DNA from: a virus
Length of the DNA stretch: 20,503 nucleotides
IMG/VR virus record: IMGVR_UViG_3300017742_000175
Span: 1-20,503 of that record
Reading direction: 5' to 3' (one strand)
The translations under genes were made by a program, and so were the position numbers. A model generated the notes under the pieces. It did no database searches. It saw nothing but the letters and a program-made list of their open reading frames with translations, and was not told the origin of the DNA. Positions 1 to 15,276 of this stretch are shown piece after piece. The number at the start of each line of letters is the position of its first letter. The stretch's first letter is position 1.

Positions 1-1
1 T

Positions 2-352
2 GATAGACTTCGTAGAAGATTTTCTGATATTTTCTTACAACTGATTAAGACCCAGTTGTTATTAAAGGGTGTTATTACTCGTCAAGACTGGGATACCTGG
101 AAAGAAGATATCGCCTTCGATTATATCGAAGATAACTATTTCTCAGAACTAAAACAAAACGAGATTCTGAGAGAACGGTTTGAAATGCTTTCACAATTAG
201 ATGAATATATTGGTAAGTACGTTTCAAACCAGTGGGTTCGCAAGAATATTCTCAAGCAATCTGACGAAGACATTGAAGAAATCAAGAAGCAGATGGAAGA
301 AGAAGAGAAAGACGGCGAAGGCACAGACGATATTAATCTCGATTTAATGTAG
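2..352 (+). CDS. 20: Portal vertex protein gp20, C-terminal part (5' truncated)
   Basis: The reading frame is open from base 2, so this is the last ~116 residues of a gene that begins outside the window. The residues from QLLLKGVIT through FSELKQNEILRERFEML to IGKYVSNQWVRKNIL match the end of T4 gp20 as I remember it (VITEEEW, YFAELKEAEIL, VGKYYSNEWIRKNVL). The portal forms the dodecameric ring at the unique capsid vertex, starts prohead assembly and passes DNA. The protein ends in an acidic tail rich in Glu and Asp. It is followed by 67-like, 68-like, 21, 22 and 23, the T4 order. An internal ATG at 56 is not the start, because conserved sequence continues upstream of it. Confidence 0.93.
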   Translation, partial: DRLRRRFSDIFLQLIKTQLLLKGVITRQDWDTWKEDIAFDYIEDNYFSELKQNEILRERFEMLSQLDEYIGKYVSNQWVRKNILKQSDEDIEEIKKQMEEEEKDGEGTDDINLDLM

Positions 353-361
353 CGTTGGGAT

Positions 362-378
362 TATAAATATTATAAATA
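362..378 (+). promoter_or_regulatory. Tandem T4-type late promoters
   Basis: Two exact copies of the late -10 octamer TATAAATA lie at 362-369 and 371-378, directly after the portal stop and 19-35 bases before the ATG of the 67-like gene. In T4-like phages this octamer is read by the gp55 sigma factor with gp33 and the gp45 clamp, and both gp55 and gp45 are encoded in this window. Confidence 0.75.
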
Positions 379-396
379 TAATACAGGAACAATGAA

Positions 397-564
397 ATGA
401 GTACAGATACAATAATTAACGCAATTCAATCTGGTAATAATATAGAAGCTGGCGTGGCTTTTAAAGAAGTAATTCACCAGAAACTTACTGACGCAATCGC
501 AGCGAAAAAGATTGAGGTGGCTGCTAGTATTGTGGCTAAACCATCTAAGACCGAAGAAGAGTAA
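397..564 (+). CDS. 67: Small prohead core protein, gp67-like
   Basis: A 55-aa ORF starts at ATG 397, 18 nt downstream of two late promoters, and ends at TAA 562-564. Its sequence opens MSTDTIINAIQSGNNIEAG and ends with acidic EEE. T4 gene 67 sits at exactly this place, between 20 and 68, and encodes an 80-aa internal core protein that starts with a similar short helix and ends in a long acidic tail; here the tail is almost absent. The assignment rests mainly on synteny, late promoter and size, with only weak residue similarity (AIQSGN against AIKSND). Gene 67 products are head-core components that gp21 cleaves. Confidence 0.62.
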   Translation: MSTDTIINAIQSGNNIEAGVAFKEVIHQKLTDAIAAKKIEVAASIVAKPSKTEEE

Positions 565-568
565 TTAT

Positions 569-802
569 ATGGCTATCACATTCTTACAACTGCAAGAAAA
601 AATTGCCAGTGGTGAAAAGGAAGTAAAATCCTTTAAGTCAGGTAAGAGGAAAAAAGTAACTGTTACTATCGCTCAAAAAGGTAGGGCATTCACCGTGTAT
701 ATTAATGGTGATAAATTAGATGATAATTATAAATCCGTTAAGGATGCAGAAAAATCTGCAAGCGAATTTATTCAACTAATGGGCGAGGAGCTTGAACTAT
801 GA
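569..802 (+). CDS. 68: Prohead core protein, gp68-like
   Basis: A 77-aa protein starts at ATG 569 (MAITFLQLQEKIASGEKEVK), 4 nt after the 67-like stop. An in-frame ATG at 512 would overlap the 67-like gene in another frame and is less likely. It is basic in the middle (KSGKRKKVTVTI) and acidic at the end (GEELEL), and overlaps the protease start by 4 nt (ATGA). T4 gp68 (141 aa) is a scaffold-core component placed between 67 and 21; this copy is about half that length. Synteny is the main evidence. Confidence 0.62.
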   Translation: MAITFLQLQEKIASGEKEVKSFKSGKRKKVTVTIAQKGRAFTVYINGDKLDDNYKSVKDAEKSASEFIQLMGEELEL

Positions 803-1452
803 AGTTAATTGCAGAATATACAGACGGTAGTGATTTACAAATCATTACTGAGAAAAAAGAAGATGGCAAATGTAATTTTGTTATCGAAGGAATTTTTATG
901 CAGGCCGAATCCAAGAATAGGAACGGTCGCATTTATGAAAGAAATATTCTAGAGAATGCTGTTAACAGGTATGTTAATGAGCAAGTATTGACAGGAAGAG
1001 CTGTTGGTGAATTAAATCACCCAGAAGGTCCATCAATCAATCTAGACAAAGTTTCGCATAAGATTACTGAACTCAAATTTGAGGGCAATAATGTTATCGG
1101 GAAGGCATCAATTCTTAATACTCCAATGGGTAATATCGTTAGTGGTTTACTTGAGGGTGGCGTTAAGCTTGGTGTATCAAGTCGTGGTATGGGTAGTCTT
1201 GAGAGAAAAAATGGTACAATGTATGTCAAAGATGACTTTATGTTGGCAACTGTTGATATAGTACAGGATCCGAGTGCTCCAGAAGCATTCGTTAATGGTA
1301 TTATGGAGGGTGTCGACTGGATCTGGGACAACGGTATCTTGAAACCTCAGGAAATTGAATTAATTGAGACTGAAATAAAAGCCGCTCGAGGTGTTAGTTC
1401 TTCTGACACTGAGATTAAAGCGTTCAAAAATTTCCTCTCGAAACTTGTATAA
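799..1452 (+). CDS. 21: Prohead core protease gp21
   Basis: A 217-aa protein similar in size to T4 gp21, the serine protease that matures the prohead by cutting scaffold and capsid proteins after (L/I)-x-E. The two catalytic blocks are visible: GELNHP with the candidate catalytic His74, and LGVSSRGMGS with candidate nucleophile Ser127 or Ser128. A third conserved block, VQDPSAPEA, around Asp157, follows. The fold is that of herpesvirus assemblin-like prohead proteases. The start ATG overlaps the 68-like stop, which suggests translational coupling. The scaffold gene follows after 20 nt with its own Shine-Dalgarno. Confidence 0.94.
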   Translation: MKLIAEYTDGSDLQIITEKKEDGKCNFVIEGIFMQAESKNRNGRIYERNILENAVNRYVNEQVLTGRAVGELNHPEGPSINLDKVSHKITELKFEGNNVIGKASILNTPMGNIVSGLLEGGVKLGVSSRGMGSLERKNGTMYVKDDFMLATVDIVQDPSAPEAFVNGIMEGVDWIWDNGILKPQEIELIETEIKAARGVSSSDTEIKAFKNFLSKLV

Positions 1453-1472
1453 CTCTTATAGGAGAGAATGAT

Positions 1473-2615
1473 ATGTCTGAAGACATTAAAGTAGAAGACA
1501 ATCATGATGTAGAGCAAATTCAGGAAACAGAAACGCTCGTTGATGAAACACAAGTTGAGTCAAACGAGGAAGTTGTGGATGTTGAAGAAGCGAAAGCTAA
1601 ACCTACGTCGGAAGACGAAGATGAAGCCGAAGTGGAAGTTGATGGCGATGAAGAAGAGGAAGAAGACGAAGACGATGAGTCTGAAGAGCCTTCTCCCAAA
1701 ATGGAAATGCCAAAAACCAAAGCGGGTATCGTTAGCGCTGCTTATGATATGTTAAAAAAATCTAAAAAAGAAGACGCTCAAAAAATCTTTGCCAGCATGC
1801 TTAAGGTTGTCGAAGGTGTTGAGGTTGTAGATGGTGAAGAAGTTGTTGCAGAAGAAACTGTTGATAAGACAGATGCTGATGTTGCACACATCGATTACCA
1901 AGAAGACCTTGATGCTATGGTAGCCGAAGAAGCCACTTTATCTGATGGATTTCGTGATAAAGCAGGAATTATTTTCGAAGCTGCTTTGAAAGCCAAAGTA
2001 GGTACAGAAATTGATCGTCTTGAAGTAGAATATGCTCAAAATCTTGAAGAAGAAGTATCTTCATTAAAATCTGACCTCGTAGAAAAAGTAGATTCCTACC
2101 TTTCTTACGTTGTTGAAGGTTGGATGAAGGAGAATGAACTTGCAGTTGAAACCGGTCTCCGGTCTGAGATTGCAGAAGAATTCATGACCTCTTTGCAAGG
2201 TGTATTTAAAGAGCACTATATTGAAATTCCTGAAGGTAAGGTTGATATGTTCGACGAATTGTCCGAGCAAGTAACTGAGCTTGAAGAACAACTCAATAAA
2301 ACCACTGAAGAAAACATTGCACTTCACGAAAAAACACAGGCTTTTGCCCGTACTGAAATCGTGCGTAATCAATCTTCTGACTTGGCTTCAACTGAAGCAG
2401 AAAAGCTTGCTTCTTTGGTAGAAGACCTTGATTTTACTGATGCTGAATCTTTCGAAATGAAAGTGAAAACCATCAAAGAATCATACTTCGCTAAAGAAAC
2501 TGTCGAAACTGTTTCTGAGGTAACCGAGTTAATCGGGTCTGAGCATTCTAATGATGAAGCTCATTCCGATTCAATGACTAGATACATGCAAGCAATTGCA
2601 AAATCTAATAAATAA
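1473..2615 (+). CDS. 22: Prohead scaffold (core) protein gp22
   Basis: A 380-aa, very acidic protein lies between the protease and major capsid genes, where T4 has the 269-aa scaffold gp22. Residues ~20-75 form a Glu/Asp-rich tract with runs such as DGDEEEEEDEDDESEE. The rest is predicted to be helical, with coiled-coil-like heptads around residues 255-285 (LSEQVTELEEQLNKTTEEN). The extra length over T4 is largely the acidic N-terminal domain. A good Shine-Dalgarno (AGGAGAG, 1460-1466) precedes ATG 1473. The scaffold fills the prohead and is degraded by gp21; IFE/A inside it fits the (L/I)-x-E rule. Its low complexity creates long false reading frames on both strands. Confidence 0.88.
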   Translation: MSEDIKVEDNHDVEQIQETETLVDETQVESNEEVVDVEEAKAKPTSEDEDEAEVEVDGDEEEEEDEDDESEEPSPKMEMPKTKAGIVSAAYDMLKKSKKEDAQKIFASMLKVVEGVEVVDGEEVVAEETVDKTDADVAHIDYQEDLDAMVAEEATLSDGFRDKAGIIFEAALKAKVGTEIDRLEVEYAQNLEEEVSSLKSDLVEKVDSYLSYVVEGWMKENELAVETGLRSEIAEEFMTSLQGVFKEHYIEIPEGKVDMFDELSEQVTELEEQLNKTTEENIALHEKTQAFARTEIVRNQSSDLASTEAEKLASLVEDLDFTDAESFEMKVKTIKESYFAKETVETVSEVTELIGSEHSNDEAHSDSMTRYMQAIAKSNK

Positions 2616-2618
2616 ATA
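2611..2618 (+). promoter_or_regulatory. Possible late promoter of gene 23 (one mismatch)
   Basis: AATAAATA differs from the late octamer TATAAATA at one base. It overlaps the scaffold stop codon and lies 27 nt before the major capsid ATG. T4 gene 23 has a strong late promoter at the same relative place. The repeat-rich context (AATAAATAAATAAACA) makes a chance match possible. Confidence 0.35.
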
Positions 2619-2645
2619 AACAATATCCATATAGAGGAAATTAAA

Positions 2646-3950
2646 ATGTTTGATCAAGATAAAAATCTAATCGAAAAATGGAGCCCGGTATTGGAGCACA
2701 GCGAAGCTTCTCCAATCCAGGACCAGTATAAAAAAGCAGTCACTGCAAGATTGCTAGAAAACCAAGAAGTCGCTATGAAAGAAGAGCGTGCTCATCAAGG
2801 TTTCAACCTAAACGAAACTGCTGCTAACCAAACTGGCGGAAGCGTAGCTGGTTTTGACCCCGTACTTATCTCTTTGGTAAGACGTGCAATGCCTAACTTG
2901 ATTGCTTATGATATCGCTGGCGTACAGCCAATGACTGGACCAACTGGTCTTATCTTCGCAATGAAGAGCAAGTACACCAATCAGGGTGGAACTGAAGCTA
3001 TGGTTGACGAAGCTGATTCTACTTTCTCAGGTACAGGAACTCAGGAAACTGATCCTTCTGGTCTGTTGGGTGTAACTGATAGTGACGCAGACAATACATT
3101 GTCTGACGAAACTAACGTATCTACTTTCGGTTCTGGCCTTACTACAGCAGCTGCTGAAGCTCTTGGTAACACAGGCGACGCATTTGGTGAAATGGCTTTC
3201 TCAATCGAGAAATCAACCGTTACTGCCAAGTCAAGAGCTCTGAAAGCTGAGTACACAATGGAATTAGCACAAGATCTTAAAGCAGTTCACGGCCTAGACG
3301 CTGAATCTGAGCTTGCTAACATCTTGTCTAGCGAAATTCTTGCTGAAATCAACAGAGAAGTTGTAAGAACAGTTCTTACAAAAGCTAAGCTTGGTGCACA
3401 ACAGTCTAACGTTGCTCTTAAAGGCGCATTCGACCTAAGCACTGACTCTGACGGCAGATGGATGGCTGAGAAGTTCAAAGGTCTCATCATGCAAATCGAA
3501 AGAGAAGCTAACATCATTGCAAAAGAAACACGTAGAGGCAAAGGTAACTATGTTATCGTTTCTTCAGACGTCGCTTCTGCACTTGCTGCTGCTGGCATGC
3601 TTGATTACAGCCCAGCCCTTGCTACTAACTTGAACGTAGATGACACTGGTAATACATTTGCTGGTCTACTCAACGGCAGAATCAAAGTATACATCGACCC
3701 GTATGCTGCTGCTGACTATGTTTGTGTTGGCTACCGTGGTTCTAACCCTTACGATGCTGGCTTGTTCTATTGCCCGTACGTACCATTAACCATGGCAAAA
3801 GCAATTGGTGAGGAAGACTTCCAGCCACGTATCGGTTTCAAAACCAGATACGGAATGGTTGCAAACCCATATGTTGCTGCAGACGGCGTTGGTACTAACC
3901 GTGCTAACCCTTACTTCAGAATCTTCCGTGTTGACTCACTGATGGTTTAA
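2646..3950 (+). CDS. 23: Major capsid protein gp23
   Basis: A 434-aa HK97-fold major head protein. It matches T4 gp23 along its length: KWSPVLE near the N terminus, LVRRAMPNLIAYDIAGVQPM, the VTAKSRALKAEYTMELAQDL block, AVHGLDAESELANILSSEI, EINREVV, and the C-terminal FQPRIGFKTRYGM. It is shorter than T4 gp23 (521 aa), mainly through loss of insertions in the middle. The N-terminal delta region contains LNE/T at residues 55-58, which fits the gp21 cleavage rule and would give a mature protein of about 377 aa. A Shine-Dalgarno (AGAGGAAA) precedes the ATG, and a strong terminator follows the stop. Confidence 0.97.
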   Translation: MFDQDKNLIEKWSPVLEHSEASPIQDQYKKAVTARLLENQEVAMKEERAHQGFNLNETAANQTGGSVAGFDPVLISLVRRAMPNLIAYDIAGVQPMTGPTGLIFAMKSKYTNQGGTEAMVDEADSTFSGTGTQETDPSGLLGVTDSDADNTLSDETNVSTFGSGLTTAAAEALGNTGDAFGEMAFSIEKSTVTAKSRALKAEYTMELAQDLKAVHGLDAESELANILSSEILAEINREVVRTVLTKAKLGAQQSNVALKGAFDLSTDSDGRWMAEKFKGLIMQIEREANIIAKETRRGKGNYVIVSSDVASALAAAGMLDYSPALATNLNVDDTGNTFAGLLNGRIKVYIDPYAAADYVCVGYRGSNPYDAGLFYCPYVPLTMAKAIGEEDFQPRIGFKTRYGMVANPYVAADGVGTNRANPYFRIFRVDSLMV

Positions 3951-3983
3951 GGTAAAATCGTAAAACATATCTTTTGTTTTAAA

Positions 3984-4009
3984 GGGGAGCTTCGGCTCCC
4001 CTTTTTTTT
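3984..4009 (+). terminator. Intrinsic terminator after gene 23
   Basis: A perfect 7-bp GC-rich stem GGGGAGC / GCTCCCC with a TTCG tetraloop is followed by eight T. Three A before the stem can pair with the first Ts. It lies 34 nt after the capsid stop codon and should end the head cassette transcript. Confidence 0.95.
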
Positions 4010-4012
4010 GCT

Positions 4013-4020
4013 TATAAATA
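4013..4020 (+). promoter_or_regulatory. Late promoter of the small lipoprotein gene
   Basis: An exact TATAAATA begins 4 nt after the terminator T-run. The predicted leader to ATG 4113 is about 85 nt, unusually long for this phage, and it holds short inverted repeats (GTGG/CCAC around 4069-4084). Confidence 0.72.
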
Positions 4021-4112
4021 AGTGTAAGGAAGATGTTCTGCGTATCAAGTGGTACGTACTGCACATGAGTGGATAGGAAACCACCCTCGGAATTACAGGA
4101 TAGGAGATTATT

Positions 4113-4316
4113 ATGCATAAGTTATTTGCATTAATGACCGTAGTTTTATTGGTTGGATGTAGCACGGTTGACTCAGTAATTGATGGCACTAAGGGTATTA
4201 TTAACGGTGTTGCATCAGACGTTGCTGGCGTTGCTACCGGAACATTGGATGTTGCATCTGGTACAATTAAAACTGTCGCCGATAAAACTGGTGTCGAAGA
4301 GTCAGAAGCTAAGTAA
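4113..4316 (+). CDS. Small late-expressed lipoprotein
   Basis: A 67-aa protein with a clear lipoprotein signal: MHKLF, hydrophobic ALMTVVLLVG, then lipobox Cys16 (L-V-G-C). Ser at +2 predicts outer-membrane sorting in a Gram-negative host. The mature part of ~52 residues is rich in Gly, Val, Ala and Thr, with a loose repeat (IDGTKGIINGVASDVAG, VATGTLDVASG) that could form an amphipathic helix or strand. A Shine-Dalgarno (ATAGGAGA) precedes the ATG. It has its own late promoter and sits between the capsid and tail-tube-like genes. I do not recognise a family; entericidin-like peptides and superinfection-exclusion or lysis lipoproteins are possible by size and signal only. Confidence 0.8.
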   Translation: MHKLFALMTVVLLVGCSTVDSVIDGTKGIINGVASDVAGVATGTLDVASGTIKTVADKTGVEESEAK

Positions 4317-4324
4317 AGCTTTAG

Positions 4325-4350
4325 GAGCAAGCCGGCCAAGGATGGCGCTC
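4325..4350 (+). other. Hairpin between the lipoprotein and tail-tube genes
   Basis: GAGC/GCTC and GCC/GGC can pair as one stem with a two-base bulge and a 10-nt loop. No T-run follows, so it may be a weak attenuator or an mRNA 3'-end stabiliser rather than a terminator. It lies just before the late promoter at 4359. Confidence 0.35.
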
Positions 4351-4358
4351 ACGACTTG

Positions 4359-4366
4359 TATAAATA
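4359..4366 (+). promoter_or_regulatory. Late promoter of the tail-tube-like gene
   Basis: An exact TATAAATA lies 33 nt before ATG 4400, with a purine-rich ribosome site (AAAGAGG) in between. Confidence 0.75.
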
Positions 4367-4399
4367 GATGTATGAATACAATTAAAGAGGTTACGCATA

Positions 4400-4873
4400 A
4401 TGGCGCTTACATCAAATAAAAACTTTTTGACACCAATTGGGTTTCAATTAAAAATCGATAGTACCCGATATCCGAATCTTGAGTTCTTTTGTTCTGGTGT
4501 TACATTGCCTAATCTAAGCGTAAGTGAAGTCGATGTTCCTTATGGTTCAATTAACGTATCTGAGCCTGGCGATAGATTAACCTTCGGTGACTTATCCATT
4601 AAGTTTAATGTAACTGAAGACATGGATAACTATATTGAGGTTTATGATTGGATTCGTTCACTTGTTGTAGATGATTATGCACATAAGGCTGATGCAACGT
4701 TAGCCATTCTAACTTCACACAACAATGTTAGCCGTGAGATAAAATTTGACGGCGTATTCCCCGTTGATATTTCAGAGATTACTTTCAGTGCAACCGAGAC
4801 TGAATCAACTTATGTTGAAGTTAACGTGACTTTTAAATATACACAGTTTAATTTTTTAACACCCCCAGCCTAA
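4400..4873 (+). CDS. Tail tube family protein (gp19-like)
   Basis: A 157-aa protein, close to the length of T4 gp19 (163 aa). It has the layout of the myovirus tube fold: an N-terminal FQLKIDS strand, then FFCSGVTLPNLSVSEVDVPYG, PGDRLTFGDLSIKFNVTEDM, a helix DNYIEVYDWIRSL, a strand HNNVSREIKFDGVFPVDISEI, and a terminal beta strand VEVNVTFKYTQF. The GDRLTFGD block corresponds to GDRTFDDW in T4 gp19. Gene 19 in T4 lies before 20, so this copy after 23 may be the true tube, a paralogue, or a gp54-type tube initiator. It has its own late promoter, as expected of a tail protein. Confidence 0.72.
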   Translation: MALTSNKNFLTPIGFQLKIDSTRYPNLEFFCSGVTLPNLSVSEVDVPYGSINVSEPGDRLTFGDLSIKFNVTEDMDNYIEVYDWIRSLVVDDYAHKADATLAILTSHNNVSREIKFDGVFPVDISEITFSATETESTYVEVNVTFKYTQFNFLTPPA

Positions 4874-4881
4874 AATAACTG

Positions 4882-4931
4882 TTTACTTTTTGCTTGAAGC
4901 AGTATATAATACTATATACAGTTGATATAAT
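4882..4931 (+). promoter_or_regulatory. Promoter region of the uvsY operon with palindrome
   Basis: TTTACT (4882-4887), a 17-bp spacer and TATAAT (4905-4910) form a sigma70-type promoter. A second extended -10, TGA-TATAAT, lies at 4923-4931. A perfect inverted repeat, GTATATA-ATAC-TATATAC (4902-4919), covers the first -10 and could be an operator. It does not belong to the TGTACA promoter class used further right. Confidence 0.6.
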
Positions 4932-4942
4932 ATGGAGAGATT

Positions 4943-5389
4943 ATGAATAACCTTGAACAAATACTAGAGATGTGGAAGAAAGATTCTATCATAGAAGAAC
5001 TGAATCTGGATAGTGCATCACGCGATTCCGCAAAACTTCATTCAAAATACTTAGAGATGCTAAGCGTAAACCGTCTTAGGGTAAAGAAGTACGAGATGGA
5101 TTTTAAAGTCCTACTCAAGAACAAATGGCTATGGTATAATGGTAAGATGACAAAGGCTGAGATGGATGAACTTGGATGGGATTACGATGCTATGAAAGGT
5201 CTTACCGTATTGAAAGGTGATATGGACCGTTTCTATGACGCAGATCCTGATATCCAAACCGCGCAGGCAAAAATCGATTACCTCAAAGAAGTAAATGATA
5301 CTTTAAAAGAGATTATAGATAATATCAAATGGAGACACCAATCAATCAAGAATGCAATTGATTGGGCCAAATTTACCAGTGGGATGTAA
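4943..5389 (+). CDS. uvsY: Recombination mediator UvsY
   Basis: A 148-aa protein matching T4 UvsY (137 aa) in size and pattern: an N-terminal acidic helix (ILEMWKKDSIIEELNLDSAS), LHSKYLEML, a middle KVLLKNKWLWYNGKMTKAEMDELGW, then a C-terminal helix ending in WRHQSIKNAIDWAKF that resembles T4 SRGFAIKHIQDMRAFEAG. UvsY loads the UvsX recombinase onto gp32-coated ssDNA as a ring-shaped oligomer. The start ATG 4943 follows GGAGAG. The SNase gene begins 5 nt after the stop and uvsW follows, so the three likely share one transcript. Confidence 0.9.
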   Translation: MNNLEQILEMWKKDSIIEELNLDSASRDSAKLHSKYLEMLSVNRLRVKKYEMDFKVLLKNKWLWYNGKMTKAEMDELGWDYDAMKGLTVLKGDMDRFYDADPDIQTAQAKIDYLKEVNDTLKEIIDNIKWRHQSIKNAIDWAKFTSGM

Positions 5390-5394
5390 TTACA

Positions 5395-5823
5395 ATGTAT
5401 GAATATAGATGTAAAGTAGTAAGAGTAGTCGATGGCGACACTGTAGATGTTGATATTGATTTAGGCTTTGGCGTATGGTTAAAGAAACAACGTGTTCGTA
5501 TGATGGGTATCGATACTCCGGAATCTCGAACTCGTGACCTTGAAGAAAAGTTTTATGGTAAAGAATCTAAGTATTTTTTACAGGATTTAATTCAATCAGT
5601 TGAAGACGAAGTTAAGTTGATCTCACATGAAAAAGGTAAGTTCGGTAGAATTCTTGGTGAAATCTTTATTGATGCCGAAGAGAAATCTGTTAATCAATTA
5701 ATGATTGATAATCATCATGCTGTTCCATATTATGGCGGTAACAAAGATGCTACTAATGAACACCACATGGTTAATAGAAAAGCTCTTAATGAGCAGGGAA
5801 TTATTTACGAGGGTGTAAAGTAG
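5395..5823 (+). CDS. Staphylococcal-nuclease-like (thermonuclease) protein
   Basis: Read from ATG 5395, this is a 142-aa SNase-fold protein (OB-fold nuclease). An in-frame ATG at 5362 inside uvsY would add 11 residues without a known counterpart. Conserved parts are VVDGDTVDVDIDLGFG (Ca2+ site region), RVRMMGIDTPE carrying Arg35, Asp40 and Glu43, and KGKFGRILGEI with Arg85; these correspond to the catalytic Arg35, Glu43 and Arg87 of the Staphylococcus enzyme, so it should be active. The start shows no signal peptide, so it likely acts in the cytoplasm. Its place between uvsY and uvsW suggests a role in DNA processing or host DNA breakdown. SNase genes are known in cyanophage-type T4 relatives. 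Confidence 0.88.
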   Translation: MYEYRCKVVRVVDGDTVDVDIDLGFGVWLKKQRVRMMGIDTPESRTRDLEEKFYGKESKYFLQDLIQSVEDEVKLISHEKGKFGRILGEIFIDAEEKSVNQLMIDNHHAVPYYGGNKDATNEHHMVNRKALNEQGIIYEGVK

Positions 5824-5832
5824 TCCTATAAC

Positions 5833-7344
5833 ATGGAAAAAATAAGAGTTAAAAAACTTAACCACGTTAATCTCCAGATAGAGTGCGATGCTGGTATACA
5901 GATGGAAATATCAGAACACTTCTGTTTCTATGTGCCGGGTTATAAATTCATGCCGGCATTTAAGAATCGTATGTGGGATGGTAAGATAAGGCTTTTTGAC
6001 GTTCGTAAACAAACACTATATTGTGGACTTTTTAATTACCTCAAAGAATTTGCTGAAGCTCGTGATTACCAAATTATTGTAGAGGACAACCGTGTATATG
6101 GTAGGCCTGATACTGAAGAGGTAATTGATATTCCTGCATTACTCGATGAATTAACATTGTCCGCCGGCAAGAAATTAATTAAACCAAGAGATTATCAGAT
6201 TAGCGCATTGGACCATGCACTTCGGCATAGGCAATCTCTATTACTATCTCCTACTGCATCCGGTAAATCATTAATCATTTATATGGCTCTCAGATATTAC
6301 TTAGAAACATATGAAGATAACGTATTGTTGATTGTACCTACTACTTCTCTGGTTGAACAGATGTATAGTGACTTTGAAGACTATGCGTATTTCGAAGAAG
6401 AATTTCGTGTAGAAGATAACTGTCACCGAATCTATTCAGGCAAAGAAAAATTTGGTATTAAGAAGAGAGTAATCATTACTACTTGGCAATCAGTATATAA
6501 GCTACCAGGTACTTGGTTTCAAGAATTCGGTATGGTAGTAGGTGATGAGGCGCACAATTTTAAGGCCAAATCATTAACATCTATCCTAGAAAAATGCTGC
6601 AACGCAAAGTATCGTATAGGTACAACAGGTACACTCGATGGTACACAGACACATCGGTTAGTATTAGAAGGTTTATTCGGCCCAGTAAAAAAGGTTACCA
6701 CAACGAAAGATTTGATTGACCAAGGTGCTTTGGCTGACCTCGATGTATCAGTAATCCTCCTTAAGTATGCAGATGAGATTTGCCAGAAGGTATCAAAATT
6801 AAAATACCAAGATGAGATAGATTATATTGTACGTAATGAGGAACGCAACAGGTTTATTACTAACTTGGCACTAGACCAGGATGGCAATACATTAGTGTTG
6901 TTCCAATTTGTAGATAAGCATGGTAAACCACTGCATGATATGATGAGAAAAAAATTAGAGTCATTTGGCGATACAAACCGTAAGTTGTTTTATGTGTCAG
7001 GTGAAACCGATGTTGATACAAGAGAGAAAATCAGAGAGATTACTGAGACCCAGTCTGATGCTATTATTGTTGCTTCATTGGGTACATTCTCTACTGGTAT
7101 TAATATTAAGTCATTGAATAATATTATATTTGCATCTCCAAGTAAATCACAAATTAAAGTTCTTCAGAGTATCGGTAGAGGTTTGCGTAAGAGCGCAGAT
7201 GGTAAAGGTACTAAAGTATTTGACATTGCCGATGACTTACATTGGAAAGCAAAGAAGAACTATACGTTACAACATGCTGGTGTGCGTATAAGTATATACA
7301 GCAAAGAGAAATTCAAATATAAAATTTATGAGGTAAGCCTGTGA
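5833..7344 (+). CDS. uvsW: UvsW-like superfamily 2 helicase
   Basis: A 503-aa protein of the same size as T4 UvsW, the helicase that unwinds R-loops, Holliday junctions and stalled forks. The N-terminal ~100 residues match the UvsW substrate domain (PAFKNRMWDGKIRLFD against PRFRYGNWDGRIRLLD). SF2 motifs follow: Walker A SPTASGKS (139-146), VPTTSLVEQM (Ia), Walker B DEAH (238-241), TGTL (III, near 265), ASLGTFSTGINIKSL (V) and IGRGLRKS with Arg449 and Arg452 (VI). It lies 9 nt after the SNase gene, and its last codons hold the ribosome site of the next gene. Confidence 0.96.
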   Translation: MEKIRVKKLNHVNLQIECDAGIQMEISEHFCFYVPGYKFMPAFKNRMWDGKIRLFDVRKQTLYCGLFNYLKEFAEARDYQIIVEDNRVYGRPDTEEVIDIPALLDELTLSAGKKLIKPRDYQISALDHALRHRQSLLLSPTASGKSLIIYMALRYYLETYEDNVLLIVPTTSLVEQMYSDFEDYAYFEEEFRVEDNCHRIYSGKEKFGIKKRVIITTWQSVYKLPGTWFQEFGMVVGDEAHNFKAKSLTSILEKCCNAKYRIGTTGTLDGTQTHRLVLEGLFGPVKKVTTTKDLIDQGALADLDVSVILLKYADEICQKVSKLKYQDEIDYIVRNEERNRFITNLALDQDGNTLVLFQFVDKHGKPLHDMMRKKLESFGDTNRKLFYVSGETDVDTREKIREITETQSDAIIVASLGTFSTGINIKSLNNIIFASPSKSQIKVLQSIGRGLRKSADGKGTKVFDIADDLHWKAKKNYTLQHAGVRISIYSKEKFKYKIYEVSL

Positions 7345-7709
7345 CTGATGAAGTAAATATTAGACAAATGAAGTTAATTAGCGGTGATGAGATTGTGTGT
7401 CTTGTTAGTTCAGACAACGATAGCACATATCTAGTAGAAACACCTATGGAATTGCGTTATGTACCTGGTACCGCTGGAAAGTATCATTTGCTTCCATGGT
7501 TTGCCCTTTCCAGTTCTAAGCTTGTGAGTATCAATAAGTCAAATGTTATCTCACATTGTGCAGTAGATGCAGAGGTTAAATATCATTACATCTCGCTTGC
7601 GCTCGATGATGGTTCCCATAATGTTGGATTATTAAATGAAGATGAAGAACGACAGTTGGATATGTTTGATGAGCTTATGCTTCCAACTAAGAGTGACTTG
7701 ATTCATTAA
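7341..7709 (+). CDS. Conserved-looking small protein after uvsW, possible Sm-like fold
   Basis: A 122-aa protein starts at GTG 7341, overlapping the uvsW stop (GTGA) with GAGGT six bases upstream. The N-terminal half reads as an SH3/Sm-like barrel: IRQMKLISGDEIVCLV, a strand YLVETPMELRYV, then LLPWFALSSSKLVSINKSNVIS. The C-terminal half is acidic (EDEERQLDMFDELM). This layout recalls small Sm-like proteins of marine T4-like phages, which is an inference. It lies at the end of the uvsY operon, and transcripts from the reverse promoter at 7747 would be antisense to it. Confidence 0.7.
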   Translation: MTDEVNIRQMKLISGDEIVCLVSSDNDSTYLVETPMELRYVPGTAGKYHLLPWFALSSSKLVSINKSNVISHCAVDAEVKYHYISLALDDGSHNVGLLNEDEERQLDMFDELMLPTKSDLIH

Positions 7710-7746
7710 TACCTTTGTACCTCTGCTCCCCCCAGACCATAGCTCT

Positions 7747-7788
7747 ATTATACCATGCTTTGCAGGCTTTGTACACAGTTATTTTGCA
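7747..7788 (-). promoter_or_regulatory. Reverse-strand promoter of the TGTACA class
   Basis: Read on the minus strand, TGCAAAATAACTGTGTACA (7788-7770) matches the block upstream of the 11539 and 13860 genes at 17 of 19 positions. It is followed by a 17-bp spacer and an extended -10 TGG-TATAAT (7755-7747). All elements of the forward class are present in the right order and spacing. It points left, into the 7341-7709 gene and uvsW, where no minus-strand gene is recognised. Confidence 0.75.
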
Positions 7789-7798
7789 TTATTTGCAA
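7784..7798. promoter_or_regulatory. Palindrome TTGCA-N5-TGCAA between divergent promoters
   Basis: A perfect 5-bp inverted repeat with 5-bp spacing lies between the reverse promoter (-35 at 7770) and the forward promoter (-35 at 7831). Its position suits an operator acting on both, but no binding protein is known from the sequence. Confidence 0.4.
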
Positions 7799-7830: not shown

Positions 7831-7859
7831 TGTACTTTTACATAAAACTGTGGTATAAT
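7831..7859 (+). promoter_or_regulatory. Promoter of gene 55 (TGTACA class)
   Basis: TGTACT, 17 bp and extended -10 TGG-TATAAT match the class also found at 11484, 13794, 15285 and 19212. The start of gene 55 is 24 nt after the -10, with AAGGAGAG as ribosome site. Confidence 0.8.
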
Positions 7860-11418: not shown

Positions 11419-11438
11419 GTGTGATATAAATGTCACAT
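11419..11438. promoter_or_regulatory. Operator-like palindrome upstream of the VWA gene
   Basis: GTGTGATATAAATGTCACAT contains TGTGA-N8-TCACA, and the same element recurs as a better palindrome at 13739-13758 upstream of the AAA+ gene. It is centred 78.5 bp before the first base of the -10. The half-sites resemble CRP-family half-sites, but the usual CRP spacing is N6, so this is only a resemblance. Confidence 0.55.
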
Positions 11439-11470: not shown

Positions 11471-11520
11471 TGCAAAATAGTTGTGTACATACCCAATTGT
11501 TCGTGGTATAATGGTTACAT
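11471..11520 (+). promoter_or_regulatory. Promoter of the VWA/HExxH gene (TGTACA class)
   Basis: TGCAAAATAGTTGTGTACAT (11471-11490) holds -35 TGTACA, followed by 17 bp and extended -10 TGG-TATAAT (11504-11512), then GGTTACATAAATT. The 20-mer and the flanks of the -10 are repeated upstream of the AAA+ gene. Confidence 0.85.
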
Positions 11521-11538: not shown

Positions 11539-13737
11539 ATGTCATTGTTAACTAATCCAATCCTAGCCAAGCTACTCGCCAAGGAGAACCTTGAGGTTCG
11601 TCATGGTAACTTCCGTACGGCATGGTTTGACCCTAAGAATCGGGTATTAGGTCTTCCTATCTGGAAAGACCATGGTAAAGATGTGTATGATTTGTTGGTT
11701 GGCCACGAAGTTGGTCATGCTCTGTTTACTCCTTCTGAGGGTTGGCATGGTGCTAACGAAGAAATCAAAGGTTGTCCTCATAGTTACCTAAACGTTATTG
11801 AAGATGTACGTATTGAACGTAAGATTCGTGAGACTTATCCTGGTTTGATTTCGCCAATGAAGCGTGGATACAAAGTTCTCGTTGAGAAAGAATTCTTCGG
11901 TGACTTAGATAGTTACGATATGGATAAGATGAAGCTTATTGATAAAATCAATCTGAAGTCTAAACTACGTAGCGAGATTGAAGTTCCGTTCAATTCTGAA
12001 GAGCAAGTATTATTTGACCGTTCTCTTAAAGCCGAGACATGGTCAGAAGTTGTTCAGATTGTTCGTGATATCCTAGCCTATTCAAAAGCCTTAGAAGAAG
12101 ATAAACAAGAGCTTCCTCAGATTGCGGCTAATGAAGATAATGAAGATACTACTGAAGAAGAGAGTGACAACGAAGCCACTGCACCTTCTGTAACGAATAC
12201 TCCTGAGGGTGACGAAGAAGAAGACGAAGATAATTCAAATAGTGGTGGCGAAGGTGATGACGAAGAAGAAACATCATCTGACGAAGAAGACCAAGATGAG
12301 ACTACTGCTTCAGCACAGACCAAAGATGATGAAGATGATTTGGAAACTTCAATCACTGATAAGATTTTCCGTTCTCGTGAAGAAGAACTTTTAGATACTA
12401 ATGAAGATGGACATCAACCGGTCTTTGTGCAAGAGATGAAAAAAGAACTTCGTGATTTTGTGACGGTTAAGTATGACCGATTGGTAGAAGAACGTGCTAA
12501 AGTTCGTTCACAAAAAGATAACAATTTCCCACAATACGAGCTTGACAACAATCTTCCTAATGAATTCAATATACATTATAAGTCTGTGAAGAAAGCAATT
12601 ACTCCTGCGGTTAAAGAGTTTGAGATGCGTAAGGCTGCATATCAATATCAACGTTCATCTTCTGCGAAAACCGGAAGCGTTGATGTGAACCGAGTACATT
12701 CATACAAGTTCAATGATGACATATTCAAGCGAGTGACTCTTCAGGCTGATGCGAAGAATCACGGAATGTTTTTGTTAGTTGATTACTCTGGTTCTATGTA
12801 CGAGACATTGGATAATGCGCTTGACCAAGTGATGCACTTAGTTGCTTTCTGTAAGGCAACTAATATTCCTTTTGAGGTTTATGGGTTTAGTTCAAACACA
12901 TCTACTTATGACCAAGGCGGTTGGCAGCCAGGAACTATGGACCTCGATAATCTTACATTGTTTCAGATGACTAGTTCAACTCTGAAGAAGAAAGAATTCG
13001 AAGATTCTATATACAACATTTGGTTGCGTAGATTATGTTCTAGCCGATATGGTGACATGCGTTGGGCTGGTGTATACCCACGAGATATCTATTGTCCTCT
13101 TGAAGAGTTCGGTTCTACTCCTTTGCACCAAGCATTGAATGTCTCTTACTACTTAGTAAAGGAAATGATTAGAAAGAACAACATCGAGAAGATGAGCTTT
13201 GTAACTTTAACTGATGGTGATTCAAACAACCTTCGTGTGTATCAATCAAATAGAGAAGACAATGCCATGCCGACAAAGTTCGGTCGTAAAGGTGGAGAAT
13301 ATTCTATGGTGATTGATAAGAAGATGGTAAAGTTTGAGGGAGCTCGTAGCGCGACTCAGGCTATCCTAGAACATATGCAAAAACGTCTAGGTCTTACTAC
13401 TGTCGGATTCTTTATTGCGGACAATAATCGTTATATGCACAACCGTTGCTGGCATGCGAATAATGATTCAAAGACCACAAAGAATCAATACTATGAGAAC
13501 AAAGAAGGTAATTCTGAATACCGCAAGAACCGTTGTATTGCATTCCAAGATACATTAGGTTACAACGAGTATTATGTTCTTAAGAAGACTGGTCTCAGTA
13601 CAGAAGAAGACGAAGGTTTTGGTGCTGTAGAGGCTGGAATGAGTAAAGGCAAACTTAACTCTGAGTTCAAGAAGTTCGCGAAGTCTAAGAAGACAAACCG
13701 AGTTTTGATGACAAAGTTTGCTAAAGCGGTTGCATAA
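11539..13737 (+). CDS. HExxH metallopeptidase-like protein with C-terminal VWA domain (CobT-like)
   Basis: The start is ATG 11539 (MSLLTNPILAKLLAKENLEV) behind GAGAGGA; an in-frame TTG at 11524 would put the ribosome site inside the gene. The 732-aa protein has three parts. Residues 1-~190 carry LVGHEVGHALFT with HEVGH at 56-60, and LNVIEDVRIERKI with Glu88, a likely third zinc ligand as in gluzincins. Residues ~195-270 are an acidic linker. The rest holds a VWA domain with a complete MIDAS: DYSGSM (Asp415, Ser417, Ser419), Thr527 in GSTPLH, and TDGDS (Asp559). VWA proteins of this sort pair with MoxR/CobS AAA+ ATPases, and such an ATPase is the next gene. It is likely a zinc protease or inactive scaffold driven by that ATPase; the substrate is unknown. 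Confidence 0.88.
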   Translation: MSLLTNPILAKLLAKENLEVRHGNFRTAWFDPKNRVLGLPIWKDHGKDVYDLLVGHEVGHALFTPSEGWHGANEEIKGCPHSYLNVIEDVRIERKIRETYPGLISPMKRGYKVLVEKEFFGDLDSYDMDKMKLIDKINLKSKLRSEIEVPFNSEEQVLFDRSLKAETWSEVVQIVRDILAYSKALEEDKQELPQIAANEDNEDTTEEESDNEATAPSVTNTPEGDEEEDEDNSNSGGEGDDEEETSSDEEDQDETTASAQTKDDEDDLETSITDKIFRSREEELLDTNEDGHQPVFVQEMKKELRDFVTVKYDRLVEERAKVRSQKDNNFPQYELDNNLPNEFNIHYKSVKKAITPAVKEFEMRKAAYQYQRSSSAKTGSVDVNRVHSYKFNDDIFKRVTLQADAKNHGMFLLVDYSGSMYETLDNALDQVMHLVAFCKATNIPFEVYGFSSNTSTYDQGGWQPGTMDLDNLTLFQMTSSTLKKKEFEDSIYNIWLRRLCSSRYGDMRWAGVYPRDIYCPLEEFGSTPLHQALNVSYYLVKEMIRKNNIEKMSFVTLTDGDSNNLRVYQSNREDNAMPTKFGRKGGEYSMVIDKKMVKFEGARSATQAILEHMQKRLGLTTVGFFIADNNRYMHNRCWHANNDSKTTKNQYYENKEGNSEYRKNRCIAFQDTLGYNEYYVLKKTGLSTEEDEGFGAVEAGMSKGKLNSEFKKFAKSKKTNRVLMTKFAKAVA

Positions 13738-13738
13738 A

Positions 13739-13758
13739 GTGTGACTTAAATGTCACAC
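13739..13758. promoter_or_regulatory. Operator-like palindrome upstream of the AAA+ gene
   Basis: GTGTGAC-TTAAAT-GTCACAC is a perfect 7-bp inverted repeat, extended by an outer A/T pair, and starts one base after the VWA stop. It repeats the element at 11419. No T-run follows, so it is not an intrinsic terminator. It is centred 68.5 bp before the -10, exactly 10 bp closer than the first copy. Confidence 0.65.
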
Positions 13759-13780
13759 TGGTCATTTAAATGGCAAATAA

Positions 13781-13830
13781 TGCAAAATAGTTGTGTACAT
13801 TACCAGAACATCGTGGTATAATGGTCACAT
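13781..13830 (+). promoter_or_regulatory. Promoter of the AAA+ gene (TGTACA class)
   Basis: The 20-mer TGCAAAATAGTTGTGTACAT is identical to that at 11471. The -35 TGTACA, 17-bp spacer and extended -10 TGG-TATAAT (13814-13822) follow, then GGTCACATAAATT. So the AAA+ gene can be transcribed apart from the VWA gene. Confidence 0.85.
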
Positions 13831-13859
13831 AAATTAATGATGAAAGAGAAAACTATATT

Positions 13860-14999
13860 ATGAAAATTTCAACCTTGAATATCCTGAAAGAACTTAAGTC
13901 TAACTCACCTGACAGTAATCTGTTTAGAACTGCAGTGATTGAGTCAACTACCAAAGCCCTTGGCTATACTAACAAAGATTATTGGGGACCTATTTGTAAT
14001 GCTACAAACCGAGTTCGTAACGGTACATATGACCTTTCAACTATGTTGGAAAATGTAGTGGTTGATATTCCAAAGATGAATCAACAAGTCTCTAATCAAA
14101 CTTCGGCCGCTATGGTTTCTTCTGTTACTAATAACGAGAAGACATTTGCTAAGGCTGACCCTACGTTTGTTCCATGGGGTTCATACAATGATATCCTACG
14201 AATCCTCAAGTCTGAGATGTTCTATCCTACATATGTTTCAGGATTATCCGGTAACGGTAAAACCTTTATGGTTGAACAAGCTTGTGCTAAGTTAAATCGT
14301 CAATTCATTCGTGTTCAGATTAATCCTGAGACTGATGAAGATGATTTGATTGGTGGATTCCGTCTTATCAATGGCGAGACTGTGTTTCAAAAAGGTCCAG
14401 TAATCAAAGCAATGGAAGACGGTTGTGTCCTTCTACTCGATGAGATTGACCGTGCTACAAACAAGATTATGTGCCTACAAGGTATCCTCGAAGGTAAGTC
14501 AGTTCTTGTCAAGAAAACTGGTGAGACTGTTACTCCTGCTAAGGGATTCAATGTTATTGCTACTGCGAACACTAAAGGTAAGGGTTCAGAGGATGGCCGA
14601 TTCACTGCGGCTTCTATTATCGATGATGCATTCCTTGAGCGTTTCGTTATTTCGATTGACCAGAAGTTTCCATCCATTTCGGTTGAACGTAAGATTGTGG
14701 CTAACCACATGAGTAAGTATGGTTCTGAAGACAAAGACTTCTGCGAGAAGCTAGTTAATTGGGCTGATATTATTCGTAAGACGTTTTACGATGATGGTAT
14801 TGATGAGGTTATTTCAACTCGTCGTTTGTGTCACATCGTACAGACCTTCTCTATCTTCAATGATAAGATGAAGTCAATTGACTTGTGTACTGCACGTTTC
14901 GATGATGACACGAAAGATGCCTTCATGGATTTGTACACTAAAATAGATAACACGGTTGAGGGTGAGTCCGCAACCACAACGGAGGAAGTAAATGGCTAA
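13860..14999 (+). CDS. CobS/MoxR-like AAA+ ATPase
   Basis: A 379-aa protein with an N-terminal ~110-residue domain of unknown role, followed by an AAA+ core: Walker A GLSGNGKT (128-135), the MoxR/CobS block INPETDEDDLIGGFRL (154-169), Walker B CVLLLDEID (189-197), sensor-1 ATANTKGKG with Asn237, and DDAFLERF with a candidate Arg finger at 261. Cyanophage homologues are usually called CobS after the cobaltochelatase subunit, but no cobalamin genes lie here. The close VWA neighbour fits the MoxR-VWA pairing seen in RavA-ViaA and NorQ-NorD, where the ATPase remodels a target recognised by the VWA protein. The stop overlaps the DUF3310 start. Confidence 0.92.
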   Translation: MKISTLNILKELKSNSPDSNLFRTAVIESTTKALGYTNKDYWGPICNATNRVRNGTYDLSTMLENVVVDIPKMNQQVSNQTSAAMVSSVTNNEKTFAKADPTFVPWGSYNDILRILKSEMFYPTYVSGLSGNGKTFMVEQACAKLNRQFIRVQINPETDEDDLIGGFRLINGETVFQKGPVIKAMEDGCVLLLDEIDRATNKIMCLQGILEGKSVLVKKTGETVTPAKGFNVIATANTKGKGSEDGRFTAASIIDDAFLERFVISIDQKFPSISVERKIVANHMSKYGSEDKDFCEKLVNWADIIRKTFYDDGIDEVISTRRLCHIVQTFSIFNDKMKSIDLCTARFDDDTKDAFMDLYTKIDNTVEGESATTTEEVNG

Positions 15000-15276
15000 A
15001 AGCCCAGACTACAAATACAACGAAGGAGCTCTGATTTCAGAGCTTCAGTCGTATATTGATTCAACCTATGACCAACATTATAGTTTGAACCAGTATCAAG
15101 CAACTGAATTCATCATTGACGCAGGTCATGGTGAAGGTTTCTGTATCGGTAATGTATTGAAATATGCACAAAGATATGGTAAAAAAGACGGTAAGAACAG
15201 GAAGGATTTAATGAAAGTCCTACACTACGCTGTCATTCAATTATACATTCATGACCTTGAATCAAATAATAATTAA
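14992..15276 (+). CDS. DUF3310-like small protein
   Basis: A 94-aa protein with the pattern of DUF3310 proteins, common in phages: YQATEFIIDAG, FCIGNVLKYAQRYGKKDG, then KDLMKVLHYAVIQLYIHDLE. The GNxxKYxxRxxxK core is the family hallmark. Biochemical function is not established; a link to nucleotide-kinase-like proteins has been suggested in annotations. It overlaps the AAA+ gene by 8 nt (ATGGCTAA) and has a strong GGAGGAA ribosome site inside it, so it belongs to that transcript. The promoter for gene 45 starts 9 nt after its stop. Confidence 0.75.
   Translation: MAKSPDYKYNEGALISELQSYIDSTYDQHYSLNQYQATEFIIDAGHGEGFCIGNVLKYAQRYGKKDGKNRKDLMKVLHYAVIQLYIHDLESNNN

Follow-up and report, generated by a model that had tools for sequence, protein, structure and literature searches.

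A probable ATP-driven remodelling pair with a predicted metal site among the replication genes of a T4-like marine phage

We here analyse two adjoining genes in a 20,503-nucleotide (nt) stretch of viral DNA (IMG/VR record IMGVR_UViG_3300017742_000175, positions 1 to 20,503; hereafter the window), a 20.5-kb fragment of a T4-like myovirus, and conclude that they probably encode a remodeller powered by ATP, one that has a functional metal site and does not serve primarily as a cobalt chelatase (probability about 0.6). The first gene (11539..13737, + strand, start ATG at 11539) encodes a 732-residue protein that joins a predicted HExxH metal site to a VWA domain and falls in phrog_459, annotated as 'peptidase' (PHROG 459, E 5.8e-173 over residues 9-732). 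The second (13860..14999, + strand) encodes a 379-residue MoxR/CobS-like AAA+ ATPase of phrog_249, annotated as 'porphyrin biosynthesis' (PHROG 249, E 2.5e-113; Pfam AAA_5, E 2.5e-21). A sequence-only reading of the same DNA had proposed such a pair, and the coordinates and the position between gp46 and gp45 that it gave for both open reading frames hold. The question matters beyond one phage, given that CobS ranks among the core genes of cyanophages (PMC3037559) and ocean surveys treat it as a B12 gene (PMC9983427); should the two proteins turn out to be a remodeller that includes a protease site, both readings need correction. The pair is real and conserved, and its database names are probably wrong.

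The case begins with conservation in the VWA protein. We aligned 59 sequences, namely the window protein and 58 relatives of 28-67% identity, with a mean column identity of 36%; the relatives come from a scan of viral contigs with six seed peptides, none of which overlaps the active-site motifs. Invariant in all of them are H56, E57, H60, N85, E88, D89, D415, S417, S419, T527 and D559. These residues include the predicted metal-binding and catalytic motif HEVGH (residues 56-60, 11704..11718, + strand), the probable third metal ligand Glu88 in LNVIEDVRIE (11800..11802, +) and all five positions of a metal-ion-dependent adhesion site (MIDAS), made up of motif 1, DYSGS (residues 415-419, 12781..12795, +), with Thr527 and Asp559 (13117-13119 and 13213-13215, +) completing it. 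In an extended set of 176 sequences the H/E/H/E site is kept in 174 of the 174 that cover it, the sole apparent exception (locus L106) being a fragment that begins downstream of the site. Because EDxRI was among the seeds of the second scan, the conservation of E88 in the larger set is biased and gives no independent evidence. The HEVGH motif with its downstream Glu and the complete MIDAS had been picked out from the window sequence alone, and loss of the metal-site residues in close homologues, which the sequence-only reading named as evidence against itself, was seen in neither the 59-sequence nor the 174-sequence set. In Pfam and NCBIfam no usable domain match to the VWA protein of the window turned up, and a PDB profile search with the whole alignment returned noise and weak VWA matches only.

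Structure models place these motifs in two folded domains. The full-length model has a mean predicted local distance difference test score (pLDDT) of 76 and is good except in an acidic linker (residues 191-275, 12109..12363, +; 44% Asp plus Glu), where residues 191-267 are unstructured at a pLDDT below 50. Because VWA domains filled the fold search with the full-length model, the N-terminal domain (residues 1-190, 11539..12108, +) was folded alone from 126 sequences, which gave a pLDDT of 93.3 and a predicted template modelling score (pTM) of 0.88. In this model H56, E57 and H60 lie on one helix (46-63) and E88 on the adjacent helix (81-99), and an HExxH with a downstream Glu on a second helix is a gluzincin-type feature. 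Metallopeptidases (ArdC, abylysin, jannalysin and selecase) take all nine top places in a Foldseek search, although the matches are weak, with a best E of 0.012. Most top rows of a VIA search are metallopeptidases too, with ArdC at a weak Z of 7.1 (root-mean-square deviation, rmsd, 4.2; 123 aligned residues) and abylysin, selecase, BlaR1, ZMPSTE24 and IrrE also present. The scores are weak on their own, and it is the agreement of the match list with the invariant motif that makes this probably a zincin-like HExxH+Glu domain, predicted to bind metal. Proteins carrying the label VWFA or CobT, from many phages and haloarchaeal tailed viruses, match it in a viral structure library. The C-terminal VWA domain (residues 406-732, 12754..13734, +) matches the VWA domain of NorD (Z 16.0, rmsd 8.5 over 248 residues with low-confidence stretches untrimmed) and the MIDAS domain of MDN1/Rea1 (Z 15.3, rmsd 3.3 over 217 aligned residues). 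Both are partners of AAA+ motors, which argues for a remodeller.

The neighbouring ATPase has the equipment of a MoxR/AAA_5 motor. Scored over 48 sequences, and all on the + strand, invariant positions occur in Walker A, GLSGNGKT (residues 128-135, 14241..14264; G128 and S130-T135), Walker B, LLLDE (191-195, 14430..14444; D194 and E195), sensor 1, ATAN (234-237, 14559..14570; T235, A236 and N237), the ERF motif with the Arg-finger candidate Arg261 (260-262, 14637..14645; E260, R261 and F262) and a sensor-2-like TRR (320-322, 14817-14825; T320, R321 and R322). The first three are thus as intact as they had appeared in the window sequence. Solved-structure relatives of the ATPase are midasin, CobS, NorQ and CbbQ. 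Three ATPases, from Microbacterium Pumpernickel, Listeria LP-125 and Acinetobacter Mithridates, were judged to be AAA+ proteins of a more distant kind and left out; no HExxH-VWA gene adjoins them among the neighbours examined.

The VWA and AAA+ genes form a nearly obligate pair. Of the VWA loci, 121 are followed by 2.5 kb of sequence or more, and 115 of these show the ATPase; whole-record searches add two (117/121), and the remaining four loci are fragment records. Seen from the ATPase side, the VWA gene is just upstream in 48 of 50 loci with room and just downstream in L142, and the 50th (L198) shares its contig with L112, where the VWA gene is present, giving 50/50. Hence the routine occurrence of the ATPase without the VWA gene, which was also to have counted against a joint function, was not seen in the 50 loci with room. 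In the phage collection the number of records per gene is equal, at 365 for Synechococcus, 61 for 'Cyanophage' and 24 for Prochlorococcus, as counted by name and not record by record. In Pseudoalteromonas phage XG4, an unannotated and unverified record (L092, 6890-8104), there is a 405-residue VWA open frame without the zincin domain, which may be a split gene, a loss or a sequencing error.

Both genes also share a promoter class with replication genes. An exact sigma70-like promoter, TGTACA-N17-TATAAT with an extended -10 (TGn), lies before the VWA gene (11484..11512, +) and before the AAA+ gene (13794..13822, +), and is kept in 21/23 and 17/17 close relatives, respectively. The same element, written in full as TGTACA-N14-TGnTATAAT, precedes gp45 and gp43 as an exact match and gp55 with a single mismatch, and close relatives retain it in 7/10, 3/3 and 14/14 cases; before gp47, gp46, p480, gp44, gp62, regA and hsp20 it is absent in close relatives. 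A scan of the window allowing up to three mismatches gave 16 matches against 4.7 expected by chance, and given that chance matches are among them only exact or near-exact, well-placed promoters were used. The claim that both genes have sigma70-type promoters of the replication class is borne out, and the pair may act early. That the class is common to gp43 (polymerase), gp45 (sliding clamp) and gp55 also argues for the remodeller.

Related but more distant pairs occur in other annotated records, many with the metal motif intact: HEIGH in DLP6, HEVAH in the Escherichia coli phage-plasmid pDETEC87 and in SSU5, HEVGH in Rhizobium phage RHph_N1_15, HEAGH in Roseobacter phage CRP-810, HEAAH in the IncC plasmid pKAZ3 and HETGH in Gordonia GodonK (whose VWA domain is assigned by motif only). 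ICP2 has HECYH, with a Val at the Glu position as placed by eye. With E values of 1e-8 to 2e-6 (search space 10,000), a profile of the T4-like N-terminal domain also picks up its counterparts in the Rhizobium, E. coli, IncC, SSU5 and BUCTxx99 proteins. A tblastn search of plasmids with the window VWA protein itself gave no match, although distant relatives do occur on plasmids.

Even in unrelated elements, the neighbours of these pairs are often replication or recombination genes. The order gp47-gp46-VWA-AAA-gp45 is found in the window and in S-PM2; the DLP6 pair lies near DNA polymerase, uvsX and a primase-helicase; dnaE is near the pair in pDETEC87, Rhizobium, BUCTxx99, the Acinetobacter element, nickie and SSU5; and in ICP2 a DNA polymerase is a few genes off. 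On the IncC plasmid ssb-bet-exo stand between the ATPase and VWA genes, and one run (L189, the conjugative pKAZ3, 1-7797) holds the AAA+ gene, ssb, bet, a lambda-type exonuclease, DUF3150 and the HEAAH-VWA gene. The dnaE or ssb-bet-exo neighbours of the distant relatives suggest work on replication or recombination proteins. However, the dnaE group may be one lineage, which leaves perhaps four independent contexts, and because phage genomes are modular the neighbourhood was counted as suggestive.

From known MoxR-VWA systems and the motifs, a mechanism can be proposed. The AAA+ protein would form a ring and use ATP; the VWA partner would dock on this ring and use its MIDAS to select a target; and in the T4-like group the metal site may cut or trim either the remodelled target or the VWA partner itself. 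The likeliest workplace would be DNA replication or recombination complexes, of phage or host, and not cobalamin synthesis; that the pair acts on replication or recombination proteins is a tentative proposal, to which we give slightly less than even odds. In a wider version, one ATP-driven protease-remodeller would be common to phages, phage-plasmids and IncC plasmids and would clear or cut proteins on DNA during replication or recombination; the names CobS, CobT and peptidase would conceal it, and cellular CobT would have the same N-terminal domain minus its metal site. We hold this version to be rather unlikely as a whole. Should the pair be a remodeller with a protease site, it would be a machine that many phages and plasmids carry near genes for DNA replication, and a clear target for study. 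Of what had been proposed from the sequence, the probably metal-binding HExxH+Glu domain on the VWA protein, the paired MoxR/CobS-like AAA+ protein and the shared promoter class are supported, as is the pairing by its nearly obligate occurrence; proteolysis and the complex itself stay conjectural.

Several observations weigh against the remodeller with a functional metal site and against its placement at replication. The zincin match is coherent yet weak. In three distant lineages the VWA-AAA pair is kept, adjoining dnaE, with both metal-site histidines gone: DREVS in Stenotrophomonas BUCTxx99, DQEVA in an Acinetobacter element and DSEIS in Pseudomonas nickie (L086, L190 and L192), which means that proteolysis is not needed everywhere and may be dispensable. 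The GodonK pair is without replication neighbours and CRP-810 has only endonuclease V nearby. Because T4-like phages inherit the position of these genes, their many loci amount to one observation. The lost histidines could also be taken to mean that the N-terminal domain binds metal or peptide as a non-proteolytic adaptor and that the pair only remodels, like RavA-ViaA or NorQ-NorD, all the more so given that cellular CobT likewise retains domain and pair without them. We regard this as unlikely, because the T4-like family strictly conserves His, Glu, His and Glu, and metal binding alone would not call for the catalytic Glu57 among them. Lineages that keep HExxH, lineages that have lost it and its loss in cellular CobT together make a natural experiment on the role of the metal site. 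Improbable, too, is a virion-assembly chaperone with a maturation protease, as proposed for the jumbo-phage pair (PMC7824862) by analogy with a MoxR-vWA system required for archaeal-virus tail assembly; the pair has the promoter class of gp43, gp45 and gp55 and does not lie with structural genes, it sits in the replication-recombination cluster, and a homologous pair is found on an IncC conjugative plasmid.

The reading of the pair as CobST is also published (PMC8651126). It would have the pair replace or boost the AAA+/VWA subunits of aerobic cobaltochelatase together with host CobN, raising cobalamin for ribonucleotide reductase, and we judge it very unlikely. The window ATPase does match CobS (E 3.7e-18), but its 65.8 bits fall short of the equivalog cut-off of 558.55. 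The HExxH-containing protein of the E. coli phage-plasmid matches Pfam CobT (E 3.6e-27) and CobT_C (1.3e-82) and has phrog_1576/phrog_459 similarity in common with the window VWA protein; the window protein itself matches neither Pfam family at E up to 1, although more distant pair members do. CobN was found in 0/14 records carrying the pair by a search that finds it in five control genomes; the E. coli control genome gave no CobN, yet such a pair occurs on E. coli elements. As to the idea that the pair marks the use of a cobalamin-dependent ribonucleotide reductase, the family of that enzyme is present in most, not all, pair-carrying records, under a Pfam model that does not separate B12-dependent from B12-independent enzymes. 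Solved cellular CobT, to which the Rhizobium, E. coli and Paraburkholderia relatives provided the link, has HNPRIH where HExxH would be; the corresponding place, located by eye, reads ARHNPRIHAAL...IFDAVEQARVE, with the Glu of the second motif kept. The profile matches, the Pfam CobT matches and this alignment indicate that the N-terminal domains of the phage protein and of CobT are probably the same domain, whose metal site persists in one branch and has disappeared from others. A search of cellular genomes for PF06213, covering four metagenome-assembled or isolate records only, gave no match. On a Paraburkholderia megaplasmid (L188, 2836-5786) a 'CobT' and AAA pair without HExxH adjoins enolase, aldolase and triose-phosphate isomerase genes, not cobalamin genes. 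With the CobS cut-off unmet, HExxH absent from CobT and CobN absent from the records, the earlier claim that the pair is not for cobalamin is favoured as a statement of its general role; it does not extend to every host, given that host CobN could still serve this phage and a role with CobN in cyanobacterial hosts is conceivable.

The rest of the window is consistent in layout with a T4-like myovirus, with gene names in part assigned from resemblance and synteny with S-PM2. The order is prohead protease, scaffold, capsid, ..., uvsW, gp55, gp47, gp46, VWA, AAA, a small conserved gene, gp45, ..., gp44, gp62, regA, hsp20 and gp43. The small gene between AAA and gp45 (14992-15276) belongs to phrog_480, of unknown function, overlaps the AAA stop codon and encodes a product with a likeness to the C-terminal part of phage nucleotide kinase families. 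A 68-nt cassette upstream of the VWA gene that includes the promoter is 84% identical to one upstream of AAA. An 18-nt inverted repeat of the TGTGAC-N6-GTCACA type stands about 120 nt upstream of both genes: before VWA it is the imperfect TGTGATATAAATGTCACA (11420..11437, +), of which an 88% identical 25-nt copy precedes AAA, and the second copy, TGTGACTTAAATGTCACA (13740..13757, +), lies directly 3' of the VWA stop codon. Two identical copies of the repeat occur in L009 and none in L001. Its half-site pattern is CRP-like with a wider spacing, and it is possibly an operator or an RNA hairpin; an Rfam scan of the window was empty. Before gp55, promoters of the same class face apart (7747-7775, -, and 7831-7859, +), which suggests divergent transcription, with no obvious gene on the minus strand.

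Among known systems, the closest in described architecture is the pair of group 2.2 jumbo phages (ASV44728 and ASV44729), reported by Iyer and colleagues (Viruses 2021, PMC7824862), in which an N-terminal metallopeptidase is fused to a vWA domain beside a MoxR AAA+ protein. The window has the same parts in the same arrangement, with a metallopeptidase motif and a zincin-like model N-terminal to vWA and an adjoining MoxR-type ATPase; the jumbo-phage pair was proposed to act in virion assembly, whereas the present one belongs to a T4-like marine phage and lies inside the replication cluster. The cyanophage 'peptidase' and 'CobS' genes (phrog_459 and phrog_249; T4-GC 146 and 150; for example S-PM2d119 and S-PM2d120) are of the same families and in the same order, gp46-VWA-AAA-gp45, at about 31% (VWA) and 52% (AAA) identity to the window proteins, but cyanophage annotation treats the two genes as unrelated. 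According to Liu and colleagues (PMC8651126), tailed viruses widely carry the cobST cluster, and 'peptidase' is a misannotation. Cobaltochelatase CobS-CobT does have a homologous AAA+ protein and the same layout of N-terminal domain, acidic linker and VWA, linked to the window by a chain of similarity through phrog_1576; however, cellular CobT is without HExxH, which the phage protein has, and the phage records are without CobN. NorQ-NorD and MDN1/Rea1 (midasin) offer the closest solved VWA/MIDAS and AAA+ folds, but no HExxH protease domain is known in either, and midasin is one giant chain. Small gluzincins, M48/M56/IrrE-type peptidases and ArdC resemble the N-terminal domain in fold and in the HExxH+Glu arrangement, at weak structural scores, and a fusion with VWA, as in the phage protein, is not known for any of the matched chains. 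Given that the architecture of the pair is published and the cyanophage gene is already called 'peptidase', the system is not categorically new. The present analysis contributes the finding that the metal site is invariant but missing from solved CobT and from three phage or plasmid lineages, together with the neighbourhoods on IncC and beside dnaE and the promoters that the genes share.

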